This document shows, in pieces, positions 2,060-32,208 of a stretch of 41,783 nucleotides of DNA; the first letter of the stretch is position 1; each line of letters opens with the position of its first letter. The position numbers were made by a program, and so were the translations under genes. The notes under the pieces were generated by a model. It had not been told where the DNA came from. It searched no databases and worked only from the letters and a program-made list of their open reading frames with translations. The stretch is from a virus. The stretch is taken from positions 1 through 41,783 of IMG/VR virus record IMGVR_UViG_3300050821_018428. The stretch is one strand, 5' to 3'.

Positions 2060-4117
2060 ATGGCAAAACGTAAAGTGAAACGAAAAAAGGATACTGAATC
2101 TGTTTACGGCAGAGGTGCTGCCAAATCATCAGGCGGCAATGAATCAGAGAGTCCAGAGACGGGCAGTGCTGAGGGCAATCCTATTGTCAGGTGGATTTTA
2201 AACTGCCGCAATGAGGCCAAGCTCGCTAAGTGGAACTCAATCATGCAGACGAGGGAAAACTGGGATGTCTACTGGGGCAGACAAGATTTCTCGCACAAAC
2301 TTCAGGGACAAAGCCGCGAAGTATTATCCATGCTCACTATGGCAGTCGAAGAGACCGCGGCCTTCTTTCAGCAAGCGTTGGTCGATATGGGAGAAGAATG
2401 GTGGAGCGTTGATCCCAGGCATCCACAAAATGAAACGCACATGAAGGTCACAACCGACATGATTAAGGCCGTGACCCAGATGCAACTCTTAAAAGCTGAT
2501 GTGTTAAAGCACGTCACCAATGCTGTGAAGTCTGGACTACTGGGCAGTCTCATTATCTCCAAGGTTCACGGCGAGGAATATTGCGTTCCAAAGTATGTGG
2601 CCAACAGATCTTGGATGAGGCGCAAAGCCACACTCGAGCAAACCATGAAGTGGGGCTGGAAGCTGAGGCTAGACAATGTCAGCCAGTTTAACTACTTCCC
2701 CGACCCAACTCCTACCAATCACAAAATGCTCTATGAGATCGAAGACATGTGGACCGATTACCACCGGGTTTGTGAGCTCTCTCAGGGTGAGAATGCGATC
2801 TATGATCCAGAAGTGGTCGAGCAAATCGAGCACTCCATGGACGATGACGCTGAGGAGAAGTTCGACCAGATGAGACGCACCAACCAGAATGCTGTTTCTC
2901 ATGCCTTTAGGGGCAGGGTGAAACTCACCGAGTATTGGGGCGATATCCTAGACGATGACGATAACTGCATTCATGAAAACATCGTCTGCACTCTGGCCAA
3001 TGACCGCTGGCTCATCAGGCCCCCCATTCCCAACCCCTTATGGCATCAAAGCTCACCTTATGTCGTGCAACCCATCTTAGATTTACCAGACGCCAAGTGG
3101 CCCAGGGCCCTTATGGATTTCCCAGCCAAACATAATCAGGCCGCGACTGAGGTCTATAACCTGATGGTCGATGGCGCGATGAAGGCTGTGAACAATATCG
3201 GCATGATCAGACAGGACTGGCTCGAGGACCCAACTCAGATCGAGGGTGGGATTAAGCCAGGTACTAACCTCAATGTGAACTCGCAGTGTCCCCCAGGTGC
3301 CAAGGTCCTAGAGATGGTGCAGACAGGGATTGTGCCGCCAGACTCTCAGCAGATGTTTCAGATCATCCAGCAAGAGTTTAACCGCTCGGCACTGACCTCT
3401 GACATCAGGCAGGGCATGCAACCAAGGCAGACTGTCTCGGCCACGCAAATCGTTGAAACCAATCAGACCATCACATCTGTGTTCCAAGGGATGACGAAAA
3501 ATATCGAGCAAGGCTTCCTTCAAAAGATACTCGAGAAGGTCTGGATGACTTGCTGTCAGTACTCAGACCTCATGGACGAAGATGAACTCAAACAAGTCTT
3601 GGGCGCTGATGATGCAGGTCACTACCTAGCGCTGACCCCTGAAGAACGTTTCGCTGAAACGGTGCACGGAGTTCATTTCCGAGTGAATGGCATCACGCTG
3701 ACTTTGCAGAAGAAAATGGACGCCAAGGCCTACATGACGCTGCTTCAAACCATTGGTGGCAATGAAGTCCTCATGGAGGAATTCGTCAAAGACGGCAACT
3801 CTATCGGCAAGCTTTTGTCGAACATCATCAGATCCATTGGCATTGATAAACGCTCAATCGCCATGGATCAGTCAGAAAAAGATGTCATGGATGCCCAGAC
3901 CCAACAAGCCGCGGCCGCAGGGCCTGGTGGACAAGGTGCACCTCAAGGAGGTCCTCAGCCTATGCAAGGTCCAGGGGCCGCTCAACCTGGATCAAGTCCT
4001 AATCAAATGAGCCAAGTCACGTCACCAAACTCTGGAAGCCTTGCTTCGCAGTTAGGAAGCGCCGCACCTGGGGTTTCAAAGTTACCGCATGAAGGATTTC
4101 ACCGGAGGCAGCAATGA
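2060..4117 (+). CDS. Portal (head-tail connector) protein
   Basis: 685 residues beginning directly after the terminase stop. Portals form the dodecameric ring at the capsid vertex through which DNA enters and leaves. The long size, the position between terminase and scaffold/capsid genes, and a helical body followed by a low-complexity Gly/Gln/Pro tail (about residues 615-685) fit the large portals of podoviruses. A basic lysine-rich N-terminus (residues 1-15) is also present. The identification rests on gene order and overall character rather than a short motif. The last bases overlap the next gene (ATGA). Confidence 0.85.
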   Translation: MAKRKVKRKKDTESVYGRGAAKSSGGNESESPETGSAEGNPIVRWILNCRNEAKLAKWNSIMQTRENWDVYWGRQDFSHKLQGQSREVLSMLTMAVEETAAFFQQALVDMGEEWWSVDPRHPQNETHMKVTTDMIKAVTQMQLLKADVLKHVTNAVKSGLLGSLIISKVHGEEYCVPKYVANRSWMRRKATLEQTMKWGWKLRLDNVSQFNYFPDPTPTNHKMLYEIEDMWTDYHRVCELSQGENAIYDPEVVEQIEHSMDDDAEEKFDQMRRTNQNAVSHAFRGRVKLTEYWGDILDDDDNCIHENIVCTLANDRWLIRPPIPNPLWHQSSPYVVQPILDLPDAKWPRALMDFPAKHNQAATEVYNLMVDGAMKAVNNIGMIRQDWLEDPTQIEGGIKPGTNLNVNSQCPPGAKVLEMVQTGIVPPDSQQMFQIIQQEFNRSALTSDIRQGMQPRQTVSATQIVETNQTITSVFQGMTKNIEQGFLQKILEKVWMTCCQYSDLMDEDELKQVLGADDAGHYLALTPEERFAETVHGVHFRVNGITLTLQKKMDAKAYMTLLQTIGGNEVLMEEFVKDGNSIGKLLSNIIRSIGIDKRSIAMDQSEKDVMDAQTQQAAAAGPGGQGAPQGGPQPMQGPGAAQPGSSPNQMSQVTSPNSGSLASQLGSAAPGVSKLPHEGFHRRQQ

Positions 4118-5521: not shown

Positions 5522-6466
5522 ATGGCTACGTTTACCTGGACACTCGATAGTCCCACAGGGGTTTATAAGAATCACAAGCTCTCGGCACAGATCCGGGAAG
5601 CCTCTGTCCTTCAATCGCTCTTTCATGAGTTCGTCGACGCAGAGCCCGGCTATGGCAGGAACAGTGGTGACACTCTGAACATCACTCGTGTGTCGAACAT
5701 CACGGTGCCCACATCGGCACTCCTTGTCGAGGGTCAGCCCATTTCTGAGGACACTTTCATTTTGAGCACACAAGCAATTGTGGTTGCTGAGAATGGTCGC
5801 TCGGTTCCGTTTACTTCTCTTTCAGAAGATCTGGCTTATTTCGATGTTGGCTCCAAGGTCCAAAAGATGCTGATGCGCCAAATGCGTATCTCCTTTGACC
5901 GCGCAGTCGCTGCAGCTTTCAAGACTGGCCAAATCAGAGCTGCTGCCACTGGTACCGCTGCCATCAGCTTTACCACGAACGCCACGGCAGGTACCGCTAC
6001 CGTCGCCCCCAACACCTATCACGTTGAGCAAATCAGAGATTACCTGTTCACCACTCTCTATGCTGAGCCATTCGACGGCGAAGATTACATCTGCATGATT
6101 TCGACCAAAGCCAAGCGTTCGATCATGCAAGATCCGGCCTGGATTGATTGGAAGAAATATACCGACCCGGAAGCCAAGTACAATTCCGAGATCGGGCGGT
6201 TTGAGAACATCAGATTTATCGAGATCAATGACACGGTTTCAGTGTCTGGCTCGGTTGGTGCTAACTCTCAGCCAGAAGCGATCTTCTTTGGTGCAGACGC
6301 TGCCACTATGGCCGTTGCAGTTGACCCTGAGCTTCGCGCTAAGATCCCAACGGATTATGGCAGATCGAAAGGTGTCGCTTGGTACGGCATTTATGGCTTT
6401 GGTCAGATCTGGTTTGATTCGGCCAACGCAGGTGAAGCTCGCACGGTTTACCTGACAAGCATTTGA
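5522..6466 (+). CDS. Major capsid protein, N4-gp56-like
   Basis: 314 residues, start ATG after AAGGGGAATAA. The protein resembles the N4-gp56 family of HK97-fold coat proteins: an N-terminal segment with QIREASVLQSLFHEFV, a central GDTLNITR beta element, the pairing IGRFENIRFIE around residues 221-231, and a C-terminal beta-rich part with GVAWYGIYGFG. Several hundred copies would build the shell. It follows the scaffold-like gene as expected. Length is normal for the family. Confidence 0.85.
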   Translation: MATFTWTLDSPTGVYKNHKLSAQIREASVLQSLFHEFVDAEPGYGRNSGDTLNITRVSNITVPTSALLVEGQPISEDTFILSTQAIVVAENGRSVPFTSLSEDLAYFDVGSKVQKMLMRQMRISFDRAVAAAFKTGQIRAAATGTAAISFTTNATAGTATVAPNTYHVEQIRDYLFTTLYAEPFDGEDYICMISTKAKRSIMQDPAWIDWKKYTDPEAKYNSEIGRFENIRFIEINDTVSVSGSVGANSQPEAIFFGADAATMAVAVDPELRAKIPTDYGRSKGVAWYGIYGFGQIWFDSANAGEARTVYLTSI

Positions 6467-22638: not shown

Positions 22639-22695
22639 TGTAAAGGATTGCAACAAAAATTGCCTTTTGCCGACTGTCCATACGACTATGTCTCT

Positions 22696-22923
22696 ATGAG
22701 GCAACGACTCGGATTCAGCCACTTTGTGGACAGAGCTTTCTGGACGCTGCTTACGGCGAGCGCCGTCTATGCCGCGAACCAACTCAAAGTGGTGTCAGCC
22801 TCGATTGAGGAGCTCAATGTAAAGATGGGCGTCGTTGTGGAAAAGATTTCAAATGCCGAGAAGAGAGTGGATCTTCTCGACCGTAGAATTGAGCGCATTG
22901 ATAATTCGATGAGACATAAATAG
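22696..22923 (+). CDS. Small membrane protein with coiled coil; holin-like
   Basis: 75 residues from the ATG at 22696; a TTG at 22648 would extend it by 16 residues but its AGGA is too close. One predicted membrane helix (FWTLLTASAVYAANQLKVV, about residues 14-32) is followed by a heptad helix (VKMGVVVEKISNAEKRVDLLDRRIERID). This layout occurs in small phage holins and in haemolysin XhlA-like proteins. It is isolated between minus-strand blocks and away from the endolysin at 28011. Role in lysis is inferred. Confidence 0.55.
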   Translation: MRQRLGFSHFVDRAFWTLLTASAVYAANQLKVVSASIEELNVKMGVVVEKISNAEKRVDLLDRRIERIDNSMRHK

Positions 22924-22928
22924 TCAGT

Positions 22929-24959
22929 CTATTCCCACGCAAAACAAGTATATGTGACCTTATTTCCAGCCACGAATACCCCGTTGATCTTAAAGCTACT
23001 CGTACTCACGTTTGAAACTCTAACAGCTACGGACGACGTTTCATCGTTGGCAAAACATGCTGGCGCCACAGGCCATGAAGAGTCTGAGAATGTCACTGTG
23101 CAAACTCCTCCGTTAGTTGAGCTGCCGACAGTAATTCGGCCTGCCATATCGTTTCCATCAACACTCGGAGATGTGCCACAATCACCTGATCCAGATCCAA
23201 TGGTTGGTGCAGGCCCTGAAAATACAGTGTGTCCGAAAAGCGCAATCTTACCCCGTGTCCCAGTCCCATCCTTTGCACCCGGATTAATAGTGACCCCACC
23301 ACTTGAACCATTACTCGCGGCAACAGCATTTCCTGTGCTTAAAGTGACACTTCCGGTTCCTGTTTTAGCTGCTCCTGTGGTTAGATTTATGTTGCCACTG
23401 AAGGCCTTATTTACTTGAGCATCTCCTGTTTGTAAGACGATGTTTCCAGTGTTTGGCTCATCGCCCGGGGCAACGGTTTGATTCGTTGTTATGTTCCCGG
23501 TGAGTAGCGAAATGCTGCCGGTCAATTGAGCGTTGAAGCCCACTTGAGTCGAGACGACACTGTTATTGCCAGTCGTTAGATTGATGCCTCCGGTACCCTC
23601 ACCAGAGCTCGTATCAAACGCTGTGTTTCCCGTCGTAACGTTAAATTGTCCAGAGTCCGCAGTCGTGGCAGCTCCAGTAGTCATTACGATATTGCCACCG
23701 GCATGCCCGGTAGCACCAGTCTGAGACACAATATTAATTGCCGTGCCAGCATTTGATCCGCTGGCAGTACCACCTTCGACGTCAAGGATGCCAGCCGGAG
23801 AAGTCGTCCCTATGCCGAAATATCCTGACGTATCGAATCGCCCAACTTCACGAAGAGTGTGATTGTTCGTTGTTTGAAAAGCGAGCGCACCATTTTCAGC
23901 GCCAGCTGTGACATCGGTCATGATCCCGCCGACGGCTGCTGCTGCGATAATTCTGTTTGGTGAGTTGTTGTTTTCGGCCGAAAACAAAATATTGGAACCA
24001 TTGCCATTGGCGCTTGAAGCTGTGTTTTCTACACGAAGCGCGTCTCTCATTCCAGAGCCAGGTGCTGCAAACTCCCCAGCTAATGAATAGCTATTTGATA
24101 CTCCAGTCCCTGCACCACCTCTAGAGTTACCATTGGACGTTCCACCAGTCGAAGCATAGATTGCTATGCCAGTTCCGCTAGCCGTTCCGCCGGTTGCAAC
24201 CTCAACATCCAAACATCTCTCTGTTGTGGCAGTGCTGGCACAACTATCTGATATGCCAGTAGGATTCGCGCCCGTTGCAGACATGGTGACGGTGATCCCG
24301 GAAACACCACCATTGCTCACGTTGCTTGCGTTGGTGATTGATAAATTGCTGGCCTTATTGCTCGCTCCAGTGGCGGTAAGGGCTAGGATATTCCCAGTTG
24401 ATCCGTTGTTGTTTCCGGTCGCCTGCATTTGAACGAGGTTGCCAGTGAACCCTGTGCCGCTTGTTGAAAAGAGCATTGCGGTGCCAGAGGTCTGAGAGTT
24501 CCAATCCCACTCCTGAGCATTGGCCACGTTATTGATGGTGTTTGCACCAGTTGCGGCCGTGATTCCAGAGAGAGCGGCACCACCACCCGCACTTGCCCAT
24601 GACGTATTCGTTCCATTGGTAGTCAAAAATAGACCAGAATTTCCGCCCTGAGATGGCGCGAGAGCATTGAAGGCGGCATTTGCCGTAGTCTGCCCTGTTC
24701 CACCACTGGATATGGGTACAGTGCCCCCTGCTCCTCCTAAGCTCGTCCATGAAGTGCCATCGCACCACTGAAGAGTGTTGGCATTGTTGCGCAGCGAGCC
24801 TTGCGCCGCGGAATTGCAGGTCGTTGTTGTGTCAGAATTCTGAAATTGTTGACCACCAAGGCCTAAGAGTAGCGGGTAAGGTGAACCCCAAATTAAAGGT
24901 GAAGTGGCGAACGCTGGATTCACAAAAAACGCGAGCATGAAAATCAAAAGATGTTTCAT
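22929..24959 (-). CDS. Exported fibre-like adhesin (signal peptide plus phage-fibre repeats)
   Basis: 676 residues. The N-terminus is a Sec signal peptide (MKHLLIFMLAFFVNPAFA, likely cleaved after AFA). Next comes LQWCDGTSWTSLG and the phage-fibre motif VPISSGGTGQTTANAAFNAL (about residues 82-101). The centre contains many repeats of the type GNIxLTTGxA. The C-terminal about 75 residues (CTVTFSDSSWPVAPACFAND, ending VTYTCFAWE) form a conserved beta tip domain with paired cysteines. A virion fibre has no need of a signal peptide, so this is probably exported by the infected or lysogenic host. Similar mosaic proteins occur in Bdellovibrio-type predators. Alternatively it is captured host cargo. 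Confidence 0.75.
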   Translation of the reverse strand: MKHLLIFMLAFFVNPAFATSPLIWGSPYPLLLGLGGQQFQNSDTTTTCNSAAQGSLRNNANTLQWCDGTSWTSLGGAGGTVPISSGGTGQTTANAAFNALAPSQGGNSGLFLTTNGTNTSWASAGGGAALSGITAATGANTINNVANAQEWDWNSQTSGTAMLFSTSGTGFTGNLVQMQATGNNNGSTGNILALTATGASNKASNLSITNASNVSNGGVSGITVTMSATGANPTGISDSCASTATTERCLDVEVATGGTASGTGIAIYASTGGTSNGNSRGGAGTGVSNSYSLAGEFAAPGSGMRDALRVENTASSANGNGSNILFSAENNNSPNRIIAAAAVGGIMTDVTAGAENGALAFQTTNNHTLREVGRFDTSGYFGIGTTSPAGILDVEGGTASGSNAGTAINIVSQTGATGHAGGNIVMTTGAATTADSGQFNVTTGNTAFDTSSGEGTGGINLTTGNNSVVSTQVGFNAQLTGSISLLTGNITTNQTVAPGDEPNTGNIVLQTGDAQVNKAFSGNINLTTGAAKTGTGSVTLSTGNAVAASNGSSGGVTINPGAKDGTGTRGKIALFGHTVFSGPAPTIGSGSGDCGTSPSVDGNDMAGRITVGSSTNGGVCTVTFSDSSWPVAPACFANDETSSVAVRVSNVSTSSFKINGVFVAGNKVTYTCFAWE

Positions 24960-24962
24960 CGC

Positions 24963-25283
24963 TTATCTCCGGTAAGTTGTGATTTCGATTTGGCCACCTG
25001 TCGCGGCTGAGTCCAAAGCTTTAAGTGAAAGTCTTGCACCTTTTGAAATGAGCACCGGAATGCGGCCGTTCCCGCCTGGGGGGATGATCAGGAGATTTTG
25101 CTCATTTCCGGCTGATCCATAGGCCAGATCGAAGGAGCTCCCAGAGGTATCAGAAATTTCAATCTCTGAAGTGTGGTCAGTGGTTGCGGCTTTGATTTGC
25201 ACATAAGCCCCCGTGCCGACCGTAGTTGAAGCATAAGAGTTTCGGATAAGATCGACAGGTTTAGCGGCTGAGCCGATAGGCAT
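24963..25283 (-). CDS. Small beta-type protein upstream of the exported adhesin
   Basis: 106 residues from the ATG at 25283, which has a strong GGGGGGA site; the longer frame to 25337 has none. Alternating strands (AYVQIKAATTDHTSEIEI, LLIIPPGGNGRIPVLI, ARLSLKALD, GQIEITTYRR) suggest a beta-sandwich. It ends 3 bases before the adhesin start, so they are co-transcribed. Not a recognised family; could be a fibre attachment protein. Confidence 0.65.
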   Translation of the reverse strand: MPIGSAAKPVDLIRNSYASTTVGTGAYVQIKAATTDHTSEIEISDTSGSSFDLAYGSAGNEQNLLIIPPGGNGRIPVLISKGARLSLKALDSAATGGQIEITTYRR

Positions 25284-25357
25284 AAAAATCCCCCCACAAG
25301 TTGACACCAGAATAGACGTTTCCAAACAGACATCCAACTAGCATTTAGGCTCGATGC

Positions 25358-25651: not shown

Positions 25652-26077
25652 GTGAACAACATCATATATTTCATAATCTTTATGTGTGCACTTACCGGAT
25701 GCACAAAAACGTCCCCCATTATCACCCCGATCAAAGACGTCGGTTGCGCAATCGAGAGTGCAGTGACCGGCAGCATCAGCCAGGTGGTTGCGACAAGTCT
25801 TAATTGCACTAATCAAGCAGCGGTCCAGGCGTCACTTCAAAGTGCCTTTGGAAATGCGAACCTGTGCGCCACCGCTTCCATGGCTAAACAAGCCTCCTTG
25901 AAGTCAGACAGACCAAAAGGTGTGATTGGTGATCTTGCCTGCCCCGTGGCAGTCAGCGCTGCTATGGGCTTTTTATCAAATCAAGTACCAACCACCTGGG
26001 GATGCTCAGTAGGCGCCACAGCTTCAGCATTAAGTGCGGCACTCGTCGCCGCATGTGAGGCAGCAATTCCATTATGA
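25652..26077 (+). CDS. Phage-encoded lipoprotein
   Basis: 141 residues, GTG start at 25652 with GAGGTG upstream. The lipobox LTGC is at residues 14-17 (cysteine 17), so a lipidated form is expected in the inner or outer membrane. The mature part is Ala/Ser-rich with five further cysteines. It may be a spanin-like partner or superinfection-exclusion lipoprotein; neither is shown. Overlaps the protease gene by ATGA. Confidence 0.7.
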   Translation: MNNIIYFIIFMCALTGCTKTSPIITPIKDVGCAIESAVTGSISQVVATSLNCTNQAAVQASLQSAFGNANLCATASMAKQASLKSDRPKGVIGDLACPVAVSAAMGFLSNQVPTTWGCSVGATASALSAALVAACEAAIPL

Positions 26078-26856
26078 ATAGAATCTTCAATCACAAAAAA
26101 GACAGATCACGAATTGGCGATGACCTTTTCAAGTTTCACCACCCCATTCATCCAGGCACGGCACTTACGTCCTATGTTGACTTAAGATCAAGGGACATCC
26201 CGATCTTTGATCAAGGTCAGATGGGCTCTTGTACGGCAAATGCCGGTGCAGGCCTTTGGGGCTTCATCGAGAAATATGACATTGAACGTGGATTCCTAGC
26301 ACCTGAGGAATTTGGCAAAGGCTATCAAGACATTTCAAGACTCATGCTTTATTATCTAGCCAGATGTCTTTGTGGCGACGTGAGCACAGATGGCGGCGCT
26401 GAACTCAGAGACATCATCGGCGTGTTTGCTAGATGGGGGATATGTCCTGAAGGTTTATGGCCGTACCTCCCGGACAACATTTTTAAATCACCGCCATCCC
26501 CAGTCTACGGCGTGGCGTGGCATCATAAAATCACCACAGGACTTCGCATCACTGATGGCTCACTGGATGAAATGAAAACCTGTTTACTAAACGGCTTTCC
26601 ATTCATCTTTGGTTTTCAGGTCTTTGACGACTTCATGAACGATTCCACGGCTCAAACAGGAATAGTTGACATGCCATCTGGCGATAACGTCGGTGGTCAT
26701 GCGGTGGAAGCTGTTGGCTTTGATGATTCAAGACAGTGGTTCATTGTCAGGAATTCGTGGGGAACATCTTGGGGTGATGCCGGATACTGTTACATGCCTT
26801 ATAACTACATCTGTGACACATCACTAGCTAACGACTTTTGGACGATAAAACCATGA
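26074..26856 (+). CDS. Papain-like cysteine protease (peptidase C1 family)
   Basis: 260 residues without a signal peptide. The papain set is complete: oxyanion Gln47 (DQGQMGSC), nucleophile Cys53 (GSCTANA), His209 (GGHAVEAVG) and Asn227 in the hallmark RNSWGTSWGDAGY. The N-terminal propeptide is short (about 30 residues), with YVDLRSR before the core. It might process a virion or host protein, or act on the envelope at lysis. It is coupled to the lipoprotein upstream (ATGA) and the glycosyltransferase downstream (ATGA). Confidence 0.85.
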   Translation: MNRIFNHKKDRSRIGDDLFKFHHPIHPGTALTSYVDLRSRDIPIFDQGQMGSCTANAGAGLWGFIEKYDIERGFLAPEEFGKGYQDISRLMLYYLARCLCGDVSTDGGAELRDIIGVFARWGICPEGLWPYLPDNIFKSPPSPVYGVAWHHKITTGLRITDGSLDEMKTCLLNGFPFIFGFQVFDDFMNDSTAQTGIVDMPSGDNVGGHAVEAVGFDDSRQWFIVRNSWGTSWGDAGYCYMPYNYICDTSLANDFWTIKP

Positions 26857-27830
26857 CATCAAAACATCTAGTAGATCATCATAAACACCACGAACTCGAA
26901 GCGAATAATACGCTTTATGTAGTCGGTGTGTGTTCGAATCCTGCTAGATGGCACTCCAGATACCGCATTGCCCGTGAATGGATCAAGCACATGGTGGGCA
27001 CTCCAAATGTGCACCTGATTGTGGTTGAAGGCAGATTTGGTGACAGACATTTCGAACTCACTCCAGACGAGATTGTTTACGACCATTTGAAAGTAAATTT
27101 GAGCTCTGAAGCATGGGTGAAAGAGTCGCTGACTAACATCGGCCTCAGATATGCGATTGCTGTCTGCAATGCACAAAACCTGTGCTGGACCGATATGGAT
27201 GTATTTTTTCGAGATGAACATTGGGCGCAAGAGGCCCTTCATCAATTACAAACATACCCGGTGATTCAGCCATGGCAAGACTGCGCGGACCTTGGTCCTC
27301 ATGGCGGCATCTCGAGACATTTTCGCTCATTCGGATATCAGCATGCCAAAGGGATTAAAAAACAAACTCACCCCTCTCAGCCATATGAATATGCGCACAC
27401 TGGGTTTTCATGGTGCTGCACCAGAGGCTTTTGGGAAAATGTGCTAGGTCTCATGGACTTCCCTATTCTTGGAAGTGCTGATCATCACATGGGTTTCGCA
27501 ATGACAGGTGAAGTCGACAAAACCATTCACCTTGGCATGCAACCCTCATTCTTTGAACTATGCCGGGAATGGCAACAAAGGGCTTTGCAAGTCACTCAAG
27601 GCGAAGTCGGGTTTTCGGTGGGGCGCATCGAGCATTGGTTTCATGGGCCAAAGAACCGCAGGTACTACCGTGAGCGTTGGCAGATCTTGGTTGATAATAA
27701 GTTTGATCCGAAGATCGACCTTAGAAAAGACTCTCAGGGTGTTATTACCTTGGTTGGAAAGCCAAGGCTTGAACATGCAATCATCAAATACAACCGAGCA
27801 AGGCTCGAAGATTCAATCGAGGAGGTTTAA
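26853..27830 (+). CDS. Glycosyltransferase-like protein, phage type
   Basis: 325 residues from the ATG at 26853, overlapping the protease stop; a TTG at 26838 is the alternative. The N-terminal nucleotide-binding region (LYVVGVCSNPARWHSRYRIA) and a DxD motif (WTDMDVFF) suggest a GT-A fold. The C-terminal part has KNRRYYRERWQIL, as in several phage glycosyltransferases. A substrate such as host surface glycan is probable but unproved. It is followed by a 60-residue gene with GGAGG. Confidence 0.7.
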   Translation: MTSKHLVDHHKHHELEANNTLYVVGVCSNPARWHSRYRIAREWIKHMVGTPNVHLIVVEGRFGDRHFELTPDEIVYDHLKVNLSSEAWVKESLTNIGLRYAIAVCNAQNLCWTDMDVFFRDEHWAQEALHQLQTYPVIQPWQDCADLGPHGGISRHFRSFGYQHAKGIKKQTHPSQPYEYAHTGFSWCCTRGFWENVLGLMDFPILGSADHHMGFAMTGEVDKTIHLGMQPSFFELCREWQQRALQVTQGEVGFSVGRIEHWFHGPKNRRYYRERWQILVDNKFDPKIDLRKDSQGVITLVGKPRLEHAIIKYNRARLEDSIEEV

Positions 27831-30158: not shown

Positions 30159-31729
30159 TTGATCTCCCTAGTGTTACTAAACCAGTTGCCATCCGGTTTT
30201 ATTATTTGGATCTGGTTAACTCCGCCTTCGCCGTTAAAAATAGGGGATGTGTGAGACTCAATGATTTCAATGCCCTTAGGGATTTGAACATCTGTCAAAT
30301 GTGTTGGGACATTCGGAAGTGAGAGTGCTCTTTGTATTTCTTGAGGAGATTTATTAGCGATATTTTCTTTTGTCACCCAATCTCCGACAACGTTATCTAA
30401 AACACCAGAGGCTCTAGTAGCGTTTATCGTTTGCTTTGTTTCTCCGCGAATGCCGTAACTATATGCTTGAAAAGGTCCCTCAGCGCTTGGGTGCTTTTTT
30501 AACCACATAAGGTTCATTTCTTCAGCCGAATAAAATTCGTGAATCGCTATATCGCCATGACTCTTTTCAATTGCTTTCGCTATGTCCTGGAATAGCTCTT
30601 TTTCTCTAAAAGCCCATTTTCCAAGCTTAAAAACTGAAGGGGCCAGACCCAGGGTTACAATGCCAGCAAAGGCTAACGCACGTTGATTGAAATTGAGCTT
30701 ATCCCCGTTGATGAGGCTCTCGCCAGTGATGGCTTCATAGATGGATTGACCTTCGCCAACGCCTGGTACAAAGCCTAGGGCAATTTCAGCCATTGTGCCT
30801 GCAATCTTTTTGAAATCATCAGCCTGCCATGATTTGCCCGCAGCATATGCGTGATCTGCAGCCGTGACCGCTTGATAACCAATTGTTTGAGCGTTTTTTT
30901 GGGCCTGTGAATTCGCATGAGCACCCAGGAGCTTCAGGAAGATGGGGAGAAGTGATTGCTCATTAGGCGCGACAGGGTTGTCAGCATTTAAGTAAATATC
31001 GGGTTCTAGCTTTGAGACAGGATGATTTCTAATATTTCGTTGGGCGTCGTCGATCATCTTTTGAGTGTCCTGCTTTCCGAAGGTTTCTAGTTCCTGATAC
31101 CTTTGAAATTCAGCAATCCTCACTTGGTCGTATAAATCTGCGAATCGATTATACGCTGCCAATGGATGTAGTTGCGGTGGGAAGTTGGCCCGAAGCTGTT
31201 TCTCGACGTCACCTTGTGAGACCAAGTTTGGCAGGATGAGCGCTTGTTTGTGATTTAGCAACTTTGAGAATTCATCGCCTTCAGCTCCTTGGGGCCAACT
31301 GGCCCCTGGAACGCCCCCGCCTATTGTCGGAATCTGACGAAGATTTTCAAGATACTCGAGCCGTGAATCCGCCACCATTTTTTCATACTTGTTTATGAAA
31401 TCCCTGATCGCAGGATTATTCCCACCATGACCCCACTGCGGCCCCAATTGCCGATCACCGTGCTCAGGTCCACTACCTCCACCATTTTGCCATCCTGGGA
31501 TTCTGGATGAACCATATCTTTGGCTGTCACCGGGGGGGGAGTTTGGGGATGACCGTAGTCCCTCAGATGGACTCGTCCTTGTTCCAGAACAGTTTCCGCA
31601 CATTCCTGTTTCAGGCTGTACGCACATCACTCCGGACGGGACGGGCGGCTGAGATGGAAGCCCAATATTGATGCAAATTTGCGCATAAACTGAACTAGTA
31701 AATAAATAAAAATAGATTACGTATTTCAT
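30155..31729 (-). CDS. Secreted polymorphic-toxin-like protein
   Basis: 524 residues. Sec signal peptide at 1-16 (MKYVIYFYLFTSSVYA), Cys-rich start (CVQPETGMCGNC), then a Gly/Pro/Ser linker and a helical middle. Residues about 317-345 (IALGFVPGVGEGQSIYEAITGE) match the pre-toxin TG domain that precedes the C-terminal toxin in polymorphic toxins. The end (about 417-524) has LPNVPTHLTDVQIPKG and EGGVNQIQII, a pattern like NAD-targeting or ADP-ribosyl toxins with a Gln after GG. Activity is inferred. It overlaps both neighbours by ATGA. Confidence 0.7.
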   Translation of the reverse strand: MKYVIYFYLFTSSVYAQICINIGLPSQPPVPSGVMCVQPETGMCGNCSGTRTSPSEGLRSSPNSPPGDSQRYGSSRIPGWQNGGGSGPEHGDRQLGPQWGHGGNNPAIRDFINKYEKMVADSRLEYLENLRQIPTIGGGVPGASWPQGAEGDEFSKLLNHKQALILPNLVSQGDVEKQLRANFPPQLHPLAAYNRFADLYDQVRIAEFQRYQELETFGKQDTQKMIDDAQRNIRNHPVSKLEPDIYLNADNPVAPNEQSLLPIFLKLLGAHANSQAQKNAQTIGYQAVTAADHAYAAGKSWQADDFKKIAGTMAEIALGFVPGVGEGQSIYEAITGESLINGDKLNFNQRALAFAGIVTLGLAPSVFKLGKWAFREKELFQDIAKAIEKSHGDIAIHEFYSAEEMNLMWLKKHPSAEGPFQAYSYGIRGETKQTINATRASGVLDNVVGDWVTKENIANKSPQEIQRALSLPNVPTHLTDVQIPKGIEIIESHTSPIFNGEGGVNQIQIIKPDGNWFSNTREIK

Positions 31730-32208
31730 CGATTAAGCCATGTTCGATATTCATATCGTAATCGTAATTTAACGAGTTCGGGTGAGGTTTGATCAAGCCA
31801 TGTTCGATATGCATCCAAAAAGCCCTGGAGATTAATACCTTGATTGGTGGCCTTAATATGATCTAGTCGGCTTAGGTAAATATCTGCTTCAATTGATTTA
31901 ACCGCCTGCATGCAAGAAATAGCTTTACTCCCGGGCGGCGTGCAAAAATTTGAAAGATTCGCAATTGAATCGGTGATTCGTTTCATGTTGTCTTCGGCCG
32001 CAACCACTTTCATTCGGATGTAATTGAGCTCACTGTTAATCCGAACTTGATTATCGTAGTCCCGTTGCCGCAGATAACTGATGTACCTCACCCGTTCCTC
32101 GTCAGTGGCAGCCTGGGCTTGTCCGGTAAACAAAAATAATATTAGTAAAAAGTACATGCAATTTACAATATGCCACATTGTATCATTTTGCAACACTTTG
32201 TTAAACAT
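31726..32208 (-). CDS. Exported helical protein, partner of the toxin
   Basis: 160 residues. Signal peptide (ending FLFTGQAQA, cleaved near residue 33 of the long form); starts at 32178 or 32157 are also possible and none has a clear ribosome binding site. The mature part is helical (ERVRYISYLRQRDYDNQVRINSELNYIR). The YRTWL block occurs twice at the C-terminus because of a 60-bp in-frame repeat. It overlaps the toxin gene (ATGA). Possibly a periplasmic chaperone or carrier for the toxin. Confidence 0.6.
   Translation of the reverse strand: MFNKVLQNDTMWHIVNCMYFLLILFLFTGQAQAATDEERVRYISYLRQRDYDNQVRINSELNYIRMKVVAAEDNMKRITDSIANLSNFCTPPGSKAISCMQAVKSIEADIYLSRLDHIKATNQGINLQGFLDAYRTWLDQTSPELVKLRLRYEYRTWLNR
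31735..31810. repeat. 60-bp-spaced direct repeat at the end of the toxin-partner gene
   Basis: AAGCCATGTTCGATAT occurs at 31735-31750 and again at 31795-31810. On the minus strand it encodes the duplicated YRTWL block. The spacing (60 bp, 20 codons) keeps the frame, so slippage would shorten or lengthen the protein without a frameshift. Confidence 0.7.

Follow-up and report, generated by a model that had tools for sequence, protein, structure and literature searches.

Fibre-type proteins with predicted Sec signal peptides in uncultured tailed phages

Results

The gene pair and its genome

The window, by which we mean the whole stretch of DNA analysed (a virus record of IMG/VR, 41,783 bases long), is a tailed-phage genome, in which PHROGs family matches place the terminase at 476-2059, a head-tail adaptor/portal-like protein at 2060-4117 and the major head protein at 5522-6466. 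The span 22929-25283 was assigned in an earlier note to a fibre-like protein. The 676-aa fibre open reading frame is indeed present (22929..24959, minus strand, ATG start; its product is P0001 below), but the span consists of two genes: the other encodes a 106-aa jelly-roll protein without a signal peptide, which we call the adaptor (24963..25283, minus strand, ATG at 25283). The adaptor gene comes first and the fibre gene second, with 3 bases between them.

Both genes have a Shine-Dalgarno sequence on the minus strand, GGGGGGA for the adaptor (25289..25295) and GGAGA for the fibre (24966..24970), the latter lying 6 bases 5' of the start and overlapping the end of the adaptor gene. P0001 lacks Shine-Dalgarno sequences at its internal start codons (5, 8 and 13), so no alternative start is seen that would yield a cytosolic P0001. 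A promoter of its own, also proposed for the pair, is not borne out: 16 promoter-like sites were counted in the region against 10.1 +/- 3.3 by chance, barely above expectation. The proposed opposition to the lysis block holds, the pair being on the minus strand and the lysis genes, the endolysin among them, on the plus strand; a 91-aa holin-like ORF (22648-22923, plus strand) faces the pair. The recombination genes (a single-strand annealing protein and an exonuclease) share the strand of the pair. In the related genome G001 the fibre, a Tfa-like gene and a holin-like gene all have the same direction. The flanks of the pair carry no convincing inverted repeats of an invertible fibre cassette, and the proteins searched included no recognisable integrase or repressor.

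Other genes of the window may be mentioned here. The lysis block includes a papain-family C1 cysteine protease (26074-26856, plus strand; PF00112, E 6.7e-12), flanked by a lipoprotein gene and a 330-aa gene. The lipoprotein (25652-26077, plus strand; start MNNIIYFIIFMCALTGC...) is another exported envelope protein close to the fibre; it has the motif LQSAxGNANLCATA in common with a lipoprotein of contig L074 (5393-5932), which adjoins the small gene of that contig. The 330-aa protein (26838-27830, plus strand) has a DMD motif and may be a glycosyltransferase, with no Pfam match. The top-scoring signal of the window is that of a 160-aa protein (31729-32208, minus strand), with the signal-like start MWHIVNCMYFLLILFLFTGQAQA and a site before ATDEE.

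The large terminase subunit (TerL) of the window is 66% identical to that of G001, 53% to that of G012 and 42% to that of G009 (the same as L056). By these identities the four belong to one phage family, a kinship that backs the family placement of P0001. The record of G001 has its start repeated at its end (L021:1-911, L022:1717-2760), with the fibre gene spanning both ends; the genome is thus probably complete and circularly closed. A tblastn search of 50,697 named phages with P0001, its tip, the adaptor and P0002 gave no match, so that the whole lineage is uncultured within the reach of that collection. P0002 (10930..13350, plus strand) is a tail protein without a signal that belongs to the structural module and lies outside the pair; it aligns over its full length, with 38% identity, to a G001 protein of 817 aa in the syntenic position, and the C-terminal part of these proteins is apparently variable. 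We consider P0002 to be probably the ordinary virion fibre.

The fibre protein and its signal peptide

A signal peptide on a fibre-type protein is unusual for a tailed phage. The predicted signal of P0001 occupies residues 1-18 (MKHLLIFMLAFFVNPAFA; 24906..24959, minus strand) and comprises K2/H3, the uncharged h-region LLIFMLAFFV and the cleavage site AFA before T, after which TSPLIWGS follows. It was found with a rule-based check, which considers charge, an uncharged hydrophobic core and a site of the A-x-A type; 8 of 9 E. coli reference signals pass it, and none of 24 signal-less fibre relatives does. Nine of the 109 ORFs of the window pass, with P0001 ranked second. The weight-matrix score of P0001 is middling, the matrix being a crude one trained on 20-odd E. 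coli signals; taken alone, the call is therefore good, short of certain.

By alignment, the predicted new N-terminus TSPLIWG (24885..24905, minus strand) takes the place of the M-GSPxIF-x-G start of the signal-less relatives considered below, and the position-specific score of TSPLIWGS at the cleavage site is exceeded by about 0.3% of random 9-mers (motif p ~0.003). Residues 41-76 (24732..24839, minus strand), with Cys48/Cys66 (C-x17-C), form an N-terminal domain that resembles the pattern APxGSLxLxxxxGxLYxKxDxGxxTNWxEVG of the fibre family. The match of the family HMM to residues 35-77 is weak (~1e-4 for one comparison; of 2000 shuffles of the same protein, 1 scored better), so the family assignment of P0001 is carried largely by adaptor synteny. 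A shaft of SGNIxLxTG-type beta repeats, read from the sequence, covers residues ~405-560 (23280..23747, minus strand), and the C-terminal tip, with cysteines 594, 620, 635 and 672, covers residues 588-676 (22932..23198, minus strand). Searches of Pfam and PHROGs with P0001 and the adaptor gave no match. The description of P0001 as a fibre-type protein with a Sec signal, fibre repeats and a conserved tip of the receptor-binding type is thus upheld by the rule-based check, the sequence itself and the relatives of the tip.

The adaptor and the signal-less fibre modules

Relatives of the adaptor domain (35-49% identity) were found in ~30 uncultured phage contigs. In most of these contigs the domain is directly upstream of a fibre gene, as in the window, and this next gene mostly encodes a signal-less fibre starting M-[G/A/S]-[S/A]-P-x-[I/L]-[F/W/Y]-x-G, often with a Tfa-like gene after it. 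The signal-less modules (L025-L066) thus share with the window the adaptor domain, the gene order and the kind of fibre N-terminus; they differ in having no signal on either the fibre or the adaptor. Their adaptor is mostly the last domain (~95 residues) of a longer, 250-820-aa virion-type protein, whereas that of the window is a stand-alone protein of 106 aa; it also stands alone within the structural operon in L044 and L060. The adaptor HMM had no match in 398 Pseudomonadota genomes.

The adaptor model (pLDDT 92.5) resembles TNF-like virion jelly rolls of the PDB, namely the PRD1 vertex protein P5 (E 0.002, TMq 0.51) and the HS1 tail needle knob (E 0.014, TMq 0.53); these are weak fold matches, with no relation in sequence. 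Among predicted viral proteins the fold gave 18 matches at E<=1e-3, including a named virion protein of phage S-SCSM1, and it is like ~110-aa proteins of uncultured caudoviruses, one of them annotated as a virion protein.

Fibres with signal peptides among the relatives

The rule-based check is passed by P0001, by the fibres of L055, L062 and G001, by the adaptor proteins of L055 and L056, and by a second fibre of L055. In L055 and L056 the fibre begins MLKFISILIAITTSAYA, with the site AYA before GSPFIFKG, and in L062 it begins MGKILTLLLTVFSLSLQAA, with the site LQAA before NSPVIYQG. An HMM built from the N-termini of signal-less fibres only matches L055 and L056 from residue 18, directly after AYA (E 5e-10 and 9e-10), and L062 from residue 21 (profile position 2; E 1.7e-20). 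As judged from these matches, in two lineages (L055/L056 and L062) the predicted signal peptide is fused exactly before the fibre N-terminus. P0001 fits this pattern, though less well in its sequence; since it has a signal peptide, we file it as an exported variant and not as a plain member of the MGSPxIFxG family.

The adaptor proteins of L055 and L056 have signals as well (...DANA before DTIDLP and ...AVKA before DTIDLP), and so has the third, fibre-like gene of L055 (...NANA before SLSQ). In G009 the adaptor domain also has a paralogue without a signal (L068:1367-1720, minus strand; E 1e-9), just upstream of the exported adaptor. Between L055 and L056 the fibre-signal sequence has changed at five nucleotides, in each case synonymously (12 synonymous and 39 nonsynonymous sites). 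The adaptor signals of the two contigs are identical at 9 of 19 aligned residues, both remaining signal-like, and the mature parts are 95% identical. Such changes match the evolution of working signal peptides, and these predicted signals are under purifying selection.

It could be argued that P0001 is a fibre like any other and that its start resembles a signal by chance, as its middling matrix score might suggest. Its rank of second among 109 ORFs and the purifying selection on analogous signals in its relatives argue otherwise, and of all the readings considered here we give this one the least credence. A different objection is that the hydrophobic N-terminus is left uncleaved: the protein would be an otherwise ordinary tail fibre, put together in the cytoplasm, that uses this segment to insert into a membrane or the virion. 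This would agree with the virion-type partner and tip, and with the cytosolic Tfa-like gene that follows the G001 fibre; it would leave unexplained why canonical A-x-A sites coincide precisely with the beginning of the conserved N-terminus, and why the L055 adaptor and second fibre have signals. We regard it as improbable.

The mature parts of all four exported fibres have even numbers of cysteines (8, 2, 4 and 2), and the complete signal-less fibres are divided into 9 odd and 9 even. This fits disulfide formation in the periplasm weakly and is suggestive only. A Tfa-like gene follows the fibre in 10 signal-less contigs and does not do so in the window, L055 or L062; as a mark of exported modules its loss was set aside, the numbers being too few for significance. 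Searching the window, G009 and G010 for a further docking-type fibre gave none. In the adaptor tree the exported fibres occupy three places, with 3 changes in 200 of 200 bootstraps; a single exported clade is not rejected (AU p 0.098), and the branches are long.

The tip and the comparison with predator adhesins

Close relatives of the tip (the last 89 residues) occur only in 12 uncultured virus contigs and one alphaproteobacterial MAG contig, with 49-54% identity and all four cysteines invariant; a search of plasmid sequences gave no match. The tip model has a pLDDT of 65.5, rising to ~80 over the last 50 residues. Its best PDB folds are the R2 pyocin fibre and the receptor-binding domain of the Pam1 tailspike; at E 0.08-0.1 these matches are weak, and we take the likeness as a lead only.

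The earlier note considered P0001 an exported trimeric adhesin of the kind known as MAT in Bdellovibrio, which would remodel the surface of a host or predator. MAT fibres of Bdellovibrio bacteriovorus have a signal peptide, a phage-fibre-like shaft and a variable tip, and this general layout matches P0001; 13 of the 21 members carry an S74 chaperone/protease domain, a conserved beta-rich domain of ~130 aa follows the signal, and the solved structures are tips (PMC10769870). The signal peptide and the fibre-like shaft are thus common to both. The difference, the two being compared by their tips, is that P0001 has neither S74 nor a known NS74 tip and is encoded by a phage beside a virion-type adaptor. 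Pfam gave no S74 hit in P0001, PDB chains (the solved MAT structures included) gave no sequence match, and a MAT tip is absent from the 50 best fold matches of the P0001 tip, the model of which reaches only pLDDT 65.5. There is no host evidence for Bdellovibrionota, the sole match in a tip scan of genome contigs being the alphaproteobacterial MAG. Lasting remodelling of a lysogen's surface finds no support either, as no integrase, repressor or other lysogeny gene was recognised among the proteins searched. Homologues in virion tail modules, named in advance as speaking against the adhesin, were largely found: both the partner and the N-terminal region of P0001 relate to signal-less fibre modules of the virion type. 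We therefore consider the adhesin very doubtful.

Analogous cases and the accessory fibre slot

The relatives of the tip are tailspikes of alphaproteobacterial prophages (L002-L013, L023). Besides the homologous four-Cys tip they have a signal (e.g. RILLRIAAFAFGLGVALPTLA before QT) and, in most cases with intact context, a 145-aa small gene upstream, a likeness to the window; they differ in their length of 900-1000 aa, in a pectate-lyase-like body (PF12708) and in the absence of the docking motif. The pN/pS of their signal region is 0.21. The tailspike gene lies between the terminase and portal genes, an odd location for a tailspike. The G001 fibre has an unrelated, Gly-rich tip and a signal-like start (MCQLIGLLLAAAVSLQAYG), and lies behind two small genes; G001 keeps a cytosolic Tfa-like gene after this signal-bearing fibre. 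HMM searches found no homology to the adaptor in the small proteins of G001 or of the alphaproteobacterial prophages, and we therefore treat G001 and L002-L013 as analogous cases and not as relatives.

In L074, a sister of G001 (small proteins 49% identical), the small gene has no adjoining fibre, and in L044 no fibre lies beside the adaptor. The fibre slot is thus accessory and, by the predicted signals, exported fibres recur in it.

Discussion

Tail fibres of tailed phages are generally held to be produced and mounted in the cytoplasm. Some tailed phages appear instead to send their fibres out through the host secretion machinery. We found no published precedent for a Sec-exported tailed-phage fibre in the literature, in which the known Sec-exported phage proteins are endolysins.

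Our proposal starts from what is shown at the sequence level: the presence of the signal peptide, its precise position in two lineages, the selection on the signals and the adaptor synteny; export in the real host, docking, its timing and the disulfides are what we infer. P0001 would be a receptor-binding tail fibre that descends from virion fibres, is now a Sec substrate and docks on virions after lysis. We put this forward tentatively, at slightly under an even chance. Methionine aminopeptidase removes Met before small residues, and in the sister phages it would free the docking N-terminus GSPxIFxG. In the exported forms signal peptidase would recreate the same free end outside the cytoplasm. 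Since the free N-terminus G/A/S/T-S-P-x-I-F is common to signal-less and exported fibres, we propose that this end docks on the adaptor. The exported fibre would fold in the periplasm, probably with disulfides, and would meet the virions at cell lysis. As the adaptor of L055/L056 is itself exported, adaptor-fibre complexes could form there before lysis; the adaptors of the window and L062 are without a signal, so that docking in these phages would need mixing after lysis. The accessory fibre slot, the cytosolic Tfa-like gene of G001 and the weak N-terminal match of P0001 count against late docking.

The main rival is that the exported fibre is free, not a virion part, and masks the receptor: it would bind the phage's own receptor, either from inside the envelope or on debris, and would thereby block superinfection or keep progeny from sticking to dead cells, with the virion using P0002. 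Receptor-blocking phage proteins such as T5 Llp work from the periplasmic side, which offers a parallel. The separate signal-less tail protein with its variable C-terminal part (P0002, the 817-aa protein of G001), the accessory nature of the fibre gene, which L044 and L074 lack beside their adaptor or small gene, and the position of the pair on the strand of the recombination genes all agree with such a role. A free mask would need neither the precise docking N-terminus behind the signal in L055/L056 and L062 nor the co-export of the L055/L056 adaptor with the fibre. We presume that masking is possible, though rather unlikely.

In its general form, our proposal is that several tailed-phage lineages independently made their fibre modules Sec-exported, with signal peptidase replacing methionine aminopeptidase and disulfide-bonded fibres being added at lysis; this we advance with more reserve than the reading of P0001 itself.

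If a fibre module does switch between cytosolic and exported forms through the gain of a signal at one exact residue, this would amount either to a new, post-lysis step of virion completion or, if masking is the correct explanation, to a new class of secreted phage receptor-binders. In metagenomic phage genomes annotation would not tell exported fibres from plain tail fibres, and either outcome, if true, would bear on the host range and superinfection exclusion read from such genomes.
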